Of a stretch of 39,756 bases of DNA, positions 3,249 to 39,756 are shown one piece after another. Under the pieces are notes generated by a model. It did no database searches. It had not been told where the DNA came from and worked only from the letters and a program-made list of their open reading frames with translations. The translations under genes and the position numbers were made by a program. Position 1 is the first letter of the stretch; the number at the start of each line of letters is the position of its first letter. The DNA comes from an uncultured bacterium (lineage in GTDB: Bacteria; Desulfobacterota; GWC2-55-46): positions 1 to 39,756 of the forward strand of contig CAJPGC010000054.1 of the NCBI GenBank assembly GCA_905339405.1, written 5' to 3'.

Positions 3249-3604
3249 GGGGGCGACTGGCTTCGACGGGACGGTCTGAGTCCGGGTGAAGCATGCCGAG
3301 TTAACTATCTTCTCGTAAAAAAAGGTAGGCAAACACAGTCGGCAACGACTACGATTACGCCCTGGCTGCCTAAAAACCGGCCAGCGTCCGGCATACCTTT
3401 TCCTGCGGGGTTTGCTGGACGACAATAAGCAGGATGGCCTCTGGGGCTAGGTCCGAAGGACCTGGGGGCGAGACCTAACCGGACTGGCTTCCCGGAAACT
3501 TGCCTGCAGAGAGCCGGGGAGCGAGACTCCATCTGTGGGCTAAGCATGTAGAAGAAACGGATAAGCGTTTCCGGACGTGGGTTCGATTCCCACCGCCTCC
3601 ACCA
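3249..3604 (+). ncRNA. ssrA: Transfer-messenger RNA (tmRNA)
   Basis: Single-piece tmRNA of 356 bases. The 5' end GGGGGCGACTGGCTTCGACG and 3' end GGTTCGATTCCCACC...CCTCCACCA form the tRNA-like acceptor stem (GGGGGCG with CGCCTCC, one G-T pair). Discriminator A and CCA are encoded. The tag reading frame begins with resume codon GCA at 3329 and ends at TAA 3371-3373. It encodes ANTVGNDYDYALAA, with the usual YALAA degradation signal. The gene lies directly behind smpB. An intrinsic terminator starts one base after CCA. The DNA further downstream repeats pieces of this 3' end. Confidence 0.97.
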
Positions 3605-3654
3605 GTTTATAAAAAAAGGGACCGGCGTTTTTGCCGGTCCCTTTTTTTATAAAC
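3605..3654 (+). terminator. ssrA terminator (22-bp perfect stem)
   Basis: Left arm 3605-3626 and right arm 3633-3654 are perfectly complementary over 22 bases around a GTTTTT loop. The right arm carries T7. The arms are A/T-rich outside and GGGACCGGC inside, so the hairpin works in both directions. The symmetry continues outward: an inverted, degenerate copy of the tmRNA T-arm lies at 3658-3672. Confidence 0.92.
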
Positions 3655-3734
3655 TATGGGCGACGGAATCGAACGGCTCTCTCGCGCCGAGCAGCGCGAG
3701 GATGAGGGCGAGCGGGAGCGAGCCCGTAAGCGAG
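3654..3734. repeat. 81-bp direct repeat, copy 1
   Basis: Identical to 3840-3920. The copy starts at the edge of the ssrA terminator. It opens with GGGCGACGGAATCGAAC, an inverted and degenerate match to the tmRNA T-arm (GTTCGATTCC plus flank). It contains the perfect hairpin CTCGCGC-cgagca-GCGCGAG. Open frames across it have no recognisable product. Of the 417 bases between ssrA and the next gene, 3735-3780 shows nothing recognisable. Confidence 0.9.
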
Positions 3735-3780: not shown

Positions 3781-3836
3781 GATTCCCGCCGCCTCCATCA
3801 AAATGGGGATCGGCTTTTTGCCAGTCCCCTTTTTTT
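3781..3836 (+). repeat. Degenerate copy of the ssrA 3' tail plus terminator
   Basis: GATTCCCGCCGCCTCCATCA at 3781-3800 resembles the last bases of tmRNA (GATTCCCACCGCCTCCACCA) with two substitutions. As after ssrA, a terminator hairpin follows: GGGGATCGGC at 3805-3814, TTTTT loop, GCCAGTCCCC at 3820-3829, then T7. It is a second, decayed unit of the tail-plus-terminator arrangement. The rest of a tmRNA is absent. Confidence 0.8.
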
Positions 3837-3839
3837 AAC

Positions 3840-3920
3840 CTATGGGCGACGGAATCGAACGGCTCTCTCGCGCCGAGCAGCGCGAGGATGAGGGCGAGCG
3901 GGAGCGAGCCCGTAAGCGAG
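3840..3920. repeat. 81-bp direct repeat, copy 2
   Basis: Perfect copy of 3654-3734, offset by 186 bases, again starting at the edge of a terminator hairpin. Together with 3581-3654 and 3781-3836 it makes a two-unit tandem array of tail, terminator and repeat. Confidence 0.9.
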
Positions 3921-4727: not shown

Positions 4728-4970
4728 CTAAGCCTTTTCCTTCTGAAGCTTCTTCAGGCCTGAAAGCTCCCTCAATACCTTAACCCGCCACGGTATCGAA
4801 AAGAGGAAGGCGGCCAGGGCTCCGGCGGCAAAGGCGAGGATGAGGACTATGACCAGAGAGGCTGAGAAGGACCAATTGAAAAAATTGACGCTTACGGGCT
4901 GGGAGTTCTGGAGCGCGAAAACCGCCGCCAGCGCCATGAGGAGAACGGCTATCGCCATTACGAATCTCAT
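4728..4970 (-). CDS. LapA family inner-membrane protein (DUF1049)
   Basis: Small membrane protein of 80 residues. It has two hydrophobic helices (about 3-21 and 37-60) separated by the family motif ALQNSQPVSVNFFNWSF. A basic cytoplasmic tail that may form a short coiled coil follows (VLRELSGLKKLQKEKA). In Escherichia coli LapA works with LapB in regulating lipopolysaccharide assembly; no lapB is in the window, so the role is inferred from family only. ATG at 4970 is preferred over an upstream in-frame start because AAGGAG sits about 6 bases before it. It is transcribed away from the PagL-like gene. Confidence 0.85.
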   Translation of the reverse strand: MRFVMAIAVLLMALAAVFALQNSQPVSVNFFNWSFSASLVIVLILAFAAGALAAFLFSIPWRVKVLRELSGLKKLQKEKA

Positions 4971-13049: not shown

Positions 13050-15215
13050 TCAGGCGCTCATGGCCAAAAGGCTCGCCTCTACCGCCTGCATAAGCCTCGG
13101 CACGTCCAGTATCAGGGCCACCTGCCCGTTGCCGAGGATCGTCGCGCCTGAAATTCCTTTTATTTCCCTGTATACCCTGCCGAGGGACTTTATGACCGTC
13201 TGCACCTCTCCGAAGAGCTCGTCGACCACGAGCCCTATCCTGGTGCCGCCGTACTGCACTATCACGATGTTCTCGTGCCCGGTCCTCTCCCCTGATTCAG
13301 CGAAGAACTCCCTGAGGCGCACGAACGGCAGGACCGCCCCGCGGAGGTTAATGTAGCTCCTCCTGTCGGCCGCGCTCTTCTCGGAGGCTGGCAGCTCGAC
13401 GCATTCCATGACCATGTCCAGCGGGATGATGTACGGAGAGCCTCCCACGCCGACCATGAAGCCGTCTATTATGGCCATCGTAAGCGGCAGCCTTATCCTT
13501 ACCGTGGTGCCCTTCCCCGGCGCGCTGTCGATGTCTATCGTGCCGCGAAGCGCCTCGATGTTGCGCTTCACCACGTCCATGCCGACGCCCCTGCCCGAGA
13601 ACTTTGTGACCGCCTCGGCCGTTGAAAAGCCCGGCTCGAATATGAGCCTGAAGACCTCCTGGTCGGTAAGCTGCTGGCCAGGCTGGATGAGCCCGGCGGC
13701 AACGGCCTTCGCGGTTATCTTTTCCTTGTTCAGGCCCTTGCCGTCGTCTGAGACCTCTATTATGATGCTGCCCGCGTCATGGCAGGCATTGAGGCGTATG
13801 GTGCCTTTCGGGTCCTTGCCAGCGGCCCTTCTCTCCTCCGGCCCCTCGACGCCGTGGTCTGCCGAGTTCCTGACGAGGTGCATCAGAGGGTCGCCTATCT
13901 TCTCGATGACCGTCTTGTCCAGCTCCGTGTCCCCGCCGGATATCACGAGGTCCATGTCCTTGCCGAGCTCGCGGCTTATGTCCCTCACCACGCGCCTGAA
14001 CCTGCTGAAGGTCTCGCCGATGGGCACCATCCTTATCTTCATGGTGGACTCCCGTATCTCCTCGACGAGCCTCAGCATCACGGACGCAGACTCCTGGAGG
14101 GCGGCATCCGACATCCTCTGCGAGTGCTGGTCTATGTTCGCCCCTGATATCACGAGCTCTCCTACGAGGTCGACGAGCGCGTCCAGCTTCGCCGCGTCTA
14201 TCCTCACGGTCGAGGCCTCGCGGCCGGCTATCGACTGGTTTTTCTTCTGCTTGTCGAGCGCCGCGTCGACTATCTCCGGGTGGAGCGAGCCCCCGGCCAC
14301 GAGCATCTCGCCTATGCGGTGCTTCTCCTGCCCGCCCTCCGCGTCCTGCTGGCGCCTGAGCGCCTCTTCGAGCTCGGCTTTGGTGAGGGCCCCGCCCTTG
14401 ACGAGTATCTCGCCCAGAAGGAGCATGTCCTCGGGAAGGCCCTGTATGAGCTCCACGTAGGAGGCGACCCTGCTGAACGGGGGAAGTATGTGTATGACGG
14501 CGTCCTCTCGCACGAACTCGAAGACGCCCTCGATGGCGGCCTTGTCAAAATCGCTCCGGAGGTCTATCTCAAAGCCCAGATAACAGCTCTCCGGGTCCAT
14601 GTCCGAGGCCTGCGGCATTGAATCGAAGAGAGTCGTTATTGATACGACCTCTCCCATCTTCGAAAGGTATGATATGAAAGAGACAGGGTCCATGCCCGAG
14701 CGCAGGACGTCCTGGCCGAACCTTATTGATATGTGCCACGCGTCGGTCGCGGAGCTCGGCCCCTCGTGCCTGCTCTCTGGCGGCTTCGCCTGCTTCTCCT
14801 CTTTCTTTTCCACGGGGGCCGCGAGCCACTGGCCGAGGCGGGCCGCCAGCGCCGCGCCAGAGGCCTCTATTTCCGGCGTAAGGACTTCAATGCCGTCGGC
14901 CGCAAGGGCCGTCAAGGTCGATATGTGGTCCCTGCACTGGAGAAGGAGGTCGATGTTCTCCTTGCAGGCAAGTATCTCGCCTTCGCGCATCTTCGACAGG
15001 AGGTTTTCCACGTGGTGCGTGAACTTCTCGACCGTCTCTATGCCCAGGACGCCGGAAGAGCCCTTTATGGTATGCGCCGAGCGGAAAAGAGAGTTTATCG
15101 CGTCCTGGCAGGCCGGGTCGGCCTCCAGCGTCAGCAGGGCGCTCTCCATCTCCTGAAGGAGCTCCTGGCTCTCAGTTATGAAAGTCTGTCTTGCCTGTCC
15201 GAGTTCCAGTTCCAT
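13050..15215 (-). CDS. cheA: Chemotaxis histidine kinase CheA
   Basis: Soluble kinase of 721 residues that phosphorylates CheY and CheB. Domains in order: Hpt with H48 in SAHTIKGSSG; an unusual middle (about 160-325); dimerisation helices (about 330-395); HATPase with HLVRNSADHG, DDGKGL and FSGRGVGMDVV; and a C-terminal CheW-like domain (about 585-715). The middle holds a ferredoxin-like segment (SFISYLSKMGEVVSITTL) and two short LGEILV/IGEMLV-type repeats, replacing a clear P2 domain. The ATG at 15215 overlaps the STAS gene stop by one base. A longer upstream frame lies inside that gene and is not used. Confidence 0.97.
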   Translation of the reverse strand: MELELGQARQTFITESQELLQEMESALLTLEADPACQDAINSLFRSAHTIKGSSGVLGIETVEKFTHHVENLLSKMREGEILACKENIDLLLQCRDHISTLTALAADGIEVLTPEIEASGAALAARLGQWLAAPVEKKEEKQAKPPESRHEGPSSATDAWHISIRFGQDVLRSGMDPVSFISYLSKMGEVVSITTLFDSMPQASDMDPESCYLGFEIDLRSDFDKAAIEGVFEFVREDAVIHILPPFSRVASYVELIQGLPEDMLLLGEILVKGGALTKAELEEALRRQQDAEGGQEKHRIGEMLVAGGSLHPEIVDAALDKQKKNQSIAGREASTVRIDAAKLDALVDLVGELVISGANIDQHSQRMSDAALQESASVMLRLVEEIRESTMKIRMVPIGETFSRFRRVVRDISRELGKDMDLVISGGDTELDKTVIEKIGDPLMHLVRNSADHGVEGPEERRAAGKDPKGTIRLNACHDAGSIIIEVSDDGKGLNKEKITAKAVAAGLIQPGQQLTDQEVFRLIFEPGFSTAEAVTKFSGRGVGMDVVKRNIEALRGTIDIDSAPGKGTTVRIRLPLTMAIIDGFMVGVGGSPYIIPLDMVMECVELPASEKSAADRRSYINLRGAVLPFVRLREFFAESGERTGHENIVIVQYGGTRIGLVVDELFGEVQTVIKSLGRVYREIKGISGATILGNGQVALILDVPRLMQAVEASLLAMSA

Positions 15216-21120: not shown

Positions 21121-21341
21121 CTGTTGAAAAAGCCATCTGCTGCTTTGTTGTATGCCGGTTGACAACGGCTCAGATGGGATTTTTTGAGCGGCCTGCTCAA
21201 GAAAAAACAGAACAGCGGCAGGCCGCTCAAAAAGTTCCGCTGCCGGACTGCGAAGAGAGCGAGGAGTGAGGCGTACTTTTTGTACGCCGCAGTGACGAGC
21301 GACGATGACAACAACGCAGATGGGACTTTTTCAGCGGCCTG
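21121..21341. repeat. Nested inverted-repeat element upstream of argC
   Basis: The ends are imperfect inverted repeats of about 30 bases: the left begins CTGTTGAAAAAGCCATCTGC, the right reads CGCTGAAAAAGTCCCATCTGC on the other strand, both running into TTGTTGT. Inside is a perfect 16-base hairpin, TTTTTGAGCGGCCTGC (21181-21196) with GCAGGCCGCTCAAAAA (21218-21233). A smaller hairpin, GGCGTAC-tttt-GTACGCC, lies near 21270-21287. There is no gene inside. The form suggests two fused palindromic units of a non-autonomous mobile element. The argC ribosome-binding site (AAGGAG) begins just outside the right end. Confidence 0.75.
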
Positions 21342-21354
21342 CAAGGAGTAGACA

Positions 21355-22431: not shown

Positions 22432-22488
22432 GCGTTTTGGGGCTTACGCTTCCATTCATTATTTTTACTTGCCTTTAACACATACCCC

Positions 22489-22673
22489 GTAACAGGGCGG
22501 AGCGCGCCTAAGGGAGGAAGAGGCGACCGGGCCGGGGAAGTTGGGAGCGAAGCGACCTCAGGGGCCCGGTTCGCGGGTGGGAGAGGCGGAAAGCGCGTAG
22601 AGCCCTGTTACAGAGAGCGGCAGCAGCCGCGTTACATGGTATTTTGGAAAAGACTCTTTGCGCGGCAGCGCGC
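22489..22673 (+). repeat. Structured dispersed repeat, copy A
   Basis: Much of this stretch (22543-22673) recurs inverted at 39623-39756. It is foldable. Outer stem GTAACAGGGC (22489-22498) pairs perfectly with GCCCTGTTAC (22602-22611). Inner ACCGGGCC (22526-22533) pairs with GGCCCGGT (22563-22570). A hairpin GCGGC-agca-GCCGC follows at about 22617-22630. No credible protein is encoded. The bases 22674-22766 show nothing further, apart from the ribosome-binding site of the next gene. Confidence 0.8.
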
Positions 22674-22781
22674 GAAAGAATAGAAGAAAGCCTTACAAAG
22701 TCAGGCTCAACAGCCCACCTCCCCAACCCCCTAAATCTTCTCACGTTCCCTGCTATCATCAATAATAAGGAGGTGGTCAAG

Positions 22782-39622: not shown

Positions 39623-39756
39623 TTTCTCGCGCTGCCGCGCTTGAATCATCTCGCCAAATTCCATGTAACGCGGCTACCGCCGCTCTCTGTAACATGCTCT
39701 ACGCGCTTTCTGCCTCCCCCACCCGCGAATCGCGCCCCCGAGGTCGCTTCGCTCCC
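39623..39756 (-). repeat. Structured dispersed repeat, copy B (cut by window edge)
   Basis: The reverse complement of this stretch matches 22543-22673 along its length. Identical blocks include GGGAGCGAAGCGACCTC, AAAGCGCGTAGAGC, TGTTACAGAGAGCGGC, GCCGCGTTACATGG and GCGCGGCAGCGCG. The hairpin GCGGC-ggta-GCCGC keeps its stem while the loop differs from copy A. The left part of the element, with its pairing arms, would lie beyond 39756. Confidence 0.85.

Follow-up and report, generated by a model that had tools for sequence, protein, structure and literature searches.

Known folding repeats of bacteria

Small dispersed repeats of bacteria are usually simple palindromes, and structure in them could be a by-product of symmetry. 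HEARO and other structured RNAs associated with mobile elements show covariation and occur in many dispersed copies. The element described here is different from HEARO in that it has no match to this family in Rfam and no reading frame inside its unit.

The REP families are marked by a GTAG or CGTC tag. They are organised as inverted doublets with short spacers (REPINs), come in several subfamilies and lie near the 3' ends of genes (PMC3116915, PMC3733652). The present element resembles them in many respects: it is a short, intergenic, non-autonomous repeat with many copies, related but different units are combined head to head across short spacers, single units resemble remnants of such doublets, more than one subfamily occurs per genome, and the copies are mostly found near gene 3' ends. 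Its unit, however, has about five times their length and contains several helices that covary as well as purine loops that are conserved though unpaired, it lacks the GTAG/CGTC tag, and no Y1 transposase was found in its own genome and none linked to it.

The bcr1 repeats of the Bacillus cereus group are a stem-loop family of 147-167 bp, and ERIC and YPAL of the enterobacteria are MITE-like, intergenic, folding sequences of 100-170 bp (PMC2267715). With bcr1 our element shares the dispersed intergenic distribution, a similar length and a common predicted secondary structure; it lives, however, in other bacteria, and the likeness is one of description, not of sequence or fold alignment. It is MITE-like, intergenic and folding as are ERIC and YPAL; ERIC, however, is described as one long stem-loop, whereas the fold of the present element comprises several helices and internal loops and is under selection on one strand. 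As to bcr1, it is reportedly transcribed and flanked by a short duplication.

With a probability of roughly 0.7, we consider the element a family-restricted, non-autonomous mobile repeat in whose unit one strand folds up into several helices. Like a MITE, it is short, multi-copy, non-coding and intergenic, and it is present or absent between relatives. It is REP/REPIN-like in organisation, about five times larger in its unit and endowed with an unusually elaborate, selected fold. We do not file it as a REPIN, because two defining features of REPINs fail.

The element and its parts

The window, i.e., the whole stretch of DNA analysed (39,756 nucleotides), comprises an entire contig. The first copy extends from about 22460 to 22676 and lies some 97 bp 3' of argC. 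The unit has a core of about 160 nt and reaches about 215 nt with leader and tail (Table 1). A preliminary description of this DNA had recognised the outer stem and the trailing hairpin, both of which are exact. Its inner stem, ACCGGGCC (22526-22533) with GGCCCGGT (22563-22570), is likewise correct but not the whole helix, being part of one of 11-12 bp. The extent of 22489-22673 given there holds at its 3' end, which is the end of the second terminal hairpin, but the conserved unit begins earlier, with the T-rich leader. No reading frame is found within the unit.

The inverted, diverged copy at the window edge is real, and both copies are intergenic, as had been described. The second one is truncated because the window, being the whole contig, ends at 39756.

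Table 1. Features of the element in the window; positions are those of the 39,756-nucleotide stretch.
Feature	Position	Strand	Observations
T-rich leader (consensus TTTTGTATTGTCTTTAACnCATACACC), which marks the 5' limit of the conserved unit	22460-22487	+	In own-genome copies the information content per column begins to rise at about -28, counted from CGTAACA; leader of the same type in other genera
Outer stem, 5' arm GTAACAGGGC	22489-22498	+	Partner 22602-22611; exchanged for different paired sequences in further genera and subfamilies
Second helix, 5' arm GCGCGC	22502-22507	+	Partner 22593-22598; in relatives, Watson-Crick pairs or tandem G·A at this place
Left purine-rich internal loop CTAAGGGAGGAAGAG	22508-22522	+	Unpaired yet strongly conserved, across genera in A2/A3; 87% purine
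Inner stem, 5' arm GCG-ACCGGGCC	22523-22533	+	Partner 22563-22574; CG/AU, CG/GC and tandem G·A exchanges; one A lost in the window copy
Apical arm with a GGGG/CCTC stem and, at 22547-22553, the mini-hairpin GCGAAGC	22534-22559	+	Mini-hairpin pairs never or almost never vary; relatives with longer apical hairpins
Inner stem, 3' arm GGCCCGGTTCGC	22563-22574	+	Partner 22523-22533
Right purine-rich internal loop GGGTGGGAGAGGCGGAAA	22575-22592	+	Conserved across genera; 89% purine
Second helix, 3' arm GCGCGT	22593-22598	+	Partner 22502-22507
Outer stem, 3' arm GCCCTGTTAC	22602-22611	+	Partner 22489-22498
Trailing hairpin GCGGC-AGCA-GCCGC	22617-22630	+	Compensatory changes in 5/5 pairs of the family alignment
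Terminal hairpin GCGCG-GCAG-CGCGC, then AAA; 3' boundary of the unit	22660-22673	+	Conservation stops just past the hairpin
Second copy, inverted, 3' part only (terminal hairpin to apical loop)	39623-39756	-	Match to model R3, 74.5 bits, cut off at the 5' end

Copies and taxonomic range

The genome to which the window belongs (2.65 Mb) contains about 60 copies of the element. By BLAST, some 41 A-type copies are near-full; their identity to the window copy is 81-91%, and E goes down to 1e-71 (the self match aside). A covariance model finds 58 copies at E ≤ 1e-4; it exceeds the BLAST count because diverged subfamilies are included. This repetition is far beyond chance, and with the further copies that the model finds in relatives it bears out the earlier suggestion of a dispersed repeat. 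The copies share the T-rich leader and end just past GCGCGGCAGCGCGC. The amplification is recent: at unrelated loci the closest pair of copies is 97.5% identical, and the median identity to the nearest neighbour is 93.8%. Several other copies lie at or near contig ends, which is to be expected, since repeats break assemblies.

In six own-genome copies (L013, L016, L021, L030, L033 and L036), which differ in their outer and inner stems, the module GCGCTTCTCGCGGAGG or a close form of it replaces GCGCGCCTAAGGGAGG; the exchange of the modules suggests recombination or gene conversion between copies. In L219 of G008 and in L004 of the own genome, extra solitary tail copies directly adjoin full copies, as if new copies inserted beside old ones.

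The clade is a lineage of uncultured Deltaproteobacteria from groundwater. Three covariance models were used. The first, R1, was built on an RNAalifold structure containing few of the pairs; R2, made from own-genome copies only, and R3 took its place. With R3 at E ≤ 1e-4, 23 of 30 same-family genomes have matches, with up to about 80 copies per genome (the weaker R1 had found 21 of 30). A search of the order with the same model and threshold yielded 24 of 48 genomes, 23 of them in the same family; the remaining one, G043 of another family, has a single weak match (E 4.5e-5). Within the family, R3 finds no copies in the genera g4, g5, g7, g8 and g11. When 198 genomes were sampled evenly across the phylum, matches came only from the three that belong to the same family. 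The element is thus restricted to one family and essentially absent outside.

No family of Rfam 15 reaches or approaches its gathering score with the element. The only Rfam matches are the tmRNA in the window and a ZTP riboswitch (L252, 827-910), which is unrelated to the element and is separated by a few hundred bases from a diverged copy of the own genome. In plasmids and phages no similar sequence was seen, the viral scan being made with a narrow exact pattern; carriage by plasmid, phage or virus was rejected on these grounds.

Selection on the fold and its strand

The fold is maintained, while nearly every paired base has been changed; there is selection on structure. In the own genome alone, 94.2% of the cells are paired in the 38-pair structure, double changes occur in 7 pairs (42 cells), and covariation amounts to 0.118, versus at most 0.042 for slid partners. 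Among 97 distinct copies, aligned by fitting to the structure and so biased towards it, 88.1% of the cells are paired, compensatory double changes affect 33 of 38 pairs (621 cells), and covariation reaches 0.425; the controls give 0.141 after shuffling and no more than 0.095 for slid partners. Plain sequence alignments independently show the paired replacement of the outer stem, which reads GTAACAGGGC/GCCCTGTTAC or GTAACATGC/GCATGTTAC in the own genome, GAGGGTAAGGC/GCCTTACCCTC in G008 and GGGCATAAGGC/GCCTTATGCCC in the partner subfamily there. Model R2 gave 114 matches in the loci examined, most of them in other genomes and some with entirely different outer stems. At two places of the fold, tandem G·A alternates with Watson-Crick pairs.

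The preliminary description had deduced selection on structure from the kept stem and changed loop of the trailing hairpin. The conclusion holds, but this single hairpin is a weak argument; it is replaced by the covariation of paired positions throughout the family. Some A-type copies of G008 (L076, L077, L081 and L083) carry in their inner stem a structured insert of about 113 nt with hairpins of its own.

Without selection, a transition in a G-C pair leads to G·T or A·C about equally often. In the family, 218 G·T cells compare with 18 A·C cells, counted as sequences, not as independent events. The + strand of the window copy, therefore, is the folding strand, and the signal is the same for RNA or single-stranded DNA. 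When the single window copy is compared with shuffled sequences, z is -2.7 on the + strand and -5.7 on the - strand; we attribute the weaker value of the + strand to its richness in G. The folding energy of the sense strand is below that of the antisense strand in 83 of 84 comparisons, which is not taken as evidence, because a G-rich sense strand favours G·U pairs and the z-scores point the opposite way.

Doublets, gain and loss

Doublets occur in three genera. G008 has 11 head-to-head and no tail-to-tail pairs, with spacers of about 57-80 bp and one longer; G012 has 15 and none, respectively, by our own count from the match listing, and in the own genome 6 pairs are head to head, 1 is tail to tail and 1 in tandem. 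A doublet combines members of two diverged subfamilies and, taken as a whole, is an inverted repeat bounded by a GC hairpin on either side; no autonomous partner of it was found.

Presence differs between species at orthologous sites, by gain or loss. G002 and G003, which belong to the same genus, have no copy at the argC site, and 63-64 bp separate the flanks in G003, versus 342 bp in the own genome. Another genus offers two such sites, both empty in G023. At the first, G008 carries one B-type copy, and G025 one A-type copy in opposite orientation. The second is occupied by a doublet in G008 and G027 and by the inverted doublet in G025 and G017. Between sister species, intergenic DNA has diverged so far that single bases cannot be aligned; neither a target-site duplication nor an exact empty site could therefore be made out, and at single sites insertion is inseparable from loss by deletion. 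That the element might be a non-autonomous mobile repeat had been one of the earlier proposals, and the many copies, their recent spread and the gain or loss at orthologous sites support it.

Such a repeat could spread as follows. An enzyme acting in trans would recognise the folded single strand, be it single-stranded DNA exposed at replication or an RNA copy. It would insert new copies between genes, for the most part close to 3' ends, at positions where their presence is tolerated. Afterwards the copies might recombine, so that modules are mixed and single copies are left over from doublets. That an elaborate fold is selected on one strand despite the turnover of its bases implies that something probably reads the folded strand, and the doublets in three genera suggest a replicating unit like that of REPINs with another mobiliser. 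Since the covariance model now locates the copies, expression, mobility and the missing enzyme become directly testable.

The mobile repeat is not without difficulty: the complex fold and the long conserved unpaired purine loops seem to exceed the apparent needs of a transposase. One may think of a class of mobile structured RNA (or single-stranded DNA), in which a fold of about 160 nt, kept to the depth of the family, spreads as head-to-head doublets via a fold-recognising protein other than a Y1 transposase or a reverse transcriptase. We regard this as conceivable, if doubtful.

Unlikely, in our view, is a functional structured non-coding RNA family that is expressed from many loci and also spreads, its fold being recognised by a protein of the host or the element. 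The compensatory changes, the tolerance of G·T but not of A·C, the tandem G·A alternating with Watson-Crick pairs and the conserved purine-rich internal loops are what such an RNA would display. Single-stranded DNA, however, gives the same G·T signal, the fold of the window copy stands out less from its shuffles on the + strand than on the - strand, and no consistent promoter element is seen by eye in the leader. Moreover, orthologous sites differ between species, and between co-directional genes the sense and antisense orientations are balanced (see below).

Gene context and orientation

Gene context was assessed with a simple hexamer gene finder. Own-genome copies occupy 14 convergent, 2 divergent and 19 co-directional gaps. 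Divergent gaps, i.e., those with promoters, are rarer than expected (2 of 35, where gap length predicts about 20%; P=0.02 by length and 0.05 by number), and there is an excess of convergent ones (P=0.014). These biases are modest, because the background set is small (71 gaps). Between co-directional genes the orientation is random, 9 sense versus 10 antisense, which argues against the element being part of the neighbouring mRNAs, and argC has a terminator-like hairpin of its own just after its stop. The earlier idea of a terminator or mRNA-processing element is thus not supported, and a cis-acting mRNA element was rejected because of the random orientation.

The preference for convergent gaps and 3' ends, together with the many copies, could also be read as a site beneficial to the host, either in DNA (for gyrase or a nucleoid protein) or at mRNA 3' ends as a terminator, that was spread by recombination. 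We consider this quite improbable in view of the balanced orientation and of the hairpin that argC already possesses; also, the sites are not conserved between sister species, and several genera of the family do without the element.

The A-type copies of G008 are unevenly distributed over the strands (13 minus, 3 plus, by our own sorting), independently of the replichore as judged from a coarse 20-point skew sample. A replication-strand bias was rejected in G008 for this reason; the GC skew of G005 is weak and mixed. In the latter genome, all 18 copies of at least 50 bits are on the + strand of six contigs (7/7, 5/5 and 3/3 within contigs), whatever the gene direction; examples are L267, L274, L278, L282, L286, L290, L293 and L297.

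Candidate mobilising enzymes

The absences reported here rest on profile searches of partly incomplete genomes. Y1_Tnp (PF01797), the profile of the RAYT transposases that accompany REPs and are often flanked by them, finds nothing in the own genome, which is 95% complete and holds 58 copies. It does find matches in the element-free G006 and G010; hence, it does not track the presence of the element. Of 13 Y1 regions of 2.6-2.9 kb, a single one contains a near-complete copy. RAYT as the mobiliser was rejected accordingly: it is absent from the own genome, does not correlate with the element and is hardly ever flanked by copies. Reverse transcriptase, as in a group II intron fragment or a retron, was rejected as well, since RVT_1 is absent from the own genome, G008 and G012, all of them rich in the element.

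A strict REP/REPIN family moved by a RAYT (Y1) transposase, though suggested by the head-to-head inverted doublets with short spacers, the several subfamilies per genome and the vicinity of gene 3' ends (PMC3116915, PMC3733652), is most improbable in view of these data on Y1, of a unit of 160-215 nt instead of a palindrome of 20-40 bp, and of terminal hairpins that, read directly, have a variable T/A and no GTAG or CGTC in front of GCGCGGCAGCGCGC.

Other repeats

The window and related genomes contain further repeats. Just 3' of the tmRNA gene (3249-3604), a direct repeat of 91 nt, 98% identical, occupies 3644-3734 and 3830-3920. A second dispersed repeat of about 125 nt lies at 21219-21343, just 5' of argC, with the inverted ends CAGGCCGCT...AGCGGCCTG; it has 45 matches in the own genome and dozens in genomes of the same genus. 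The genus of G008 has at least three more families of dispersed repeats, 130-160 nt long, which are seen in L212 of this genome at 1436-1595, 4757-4892 and 13664-13796.
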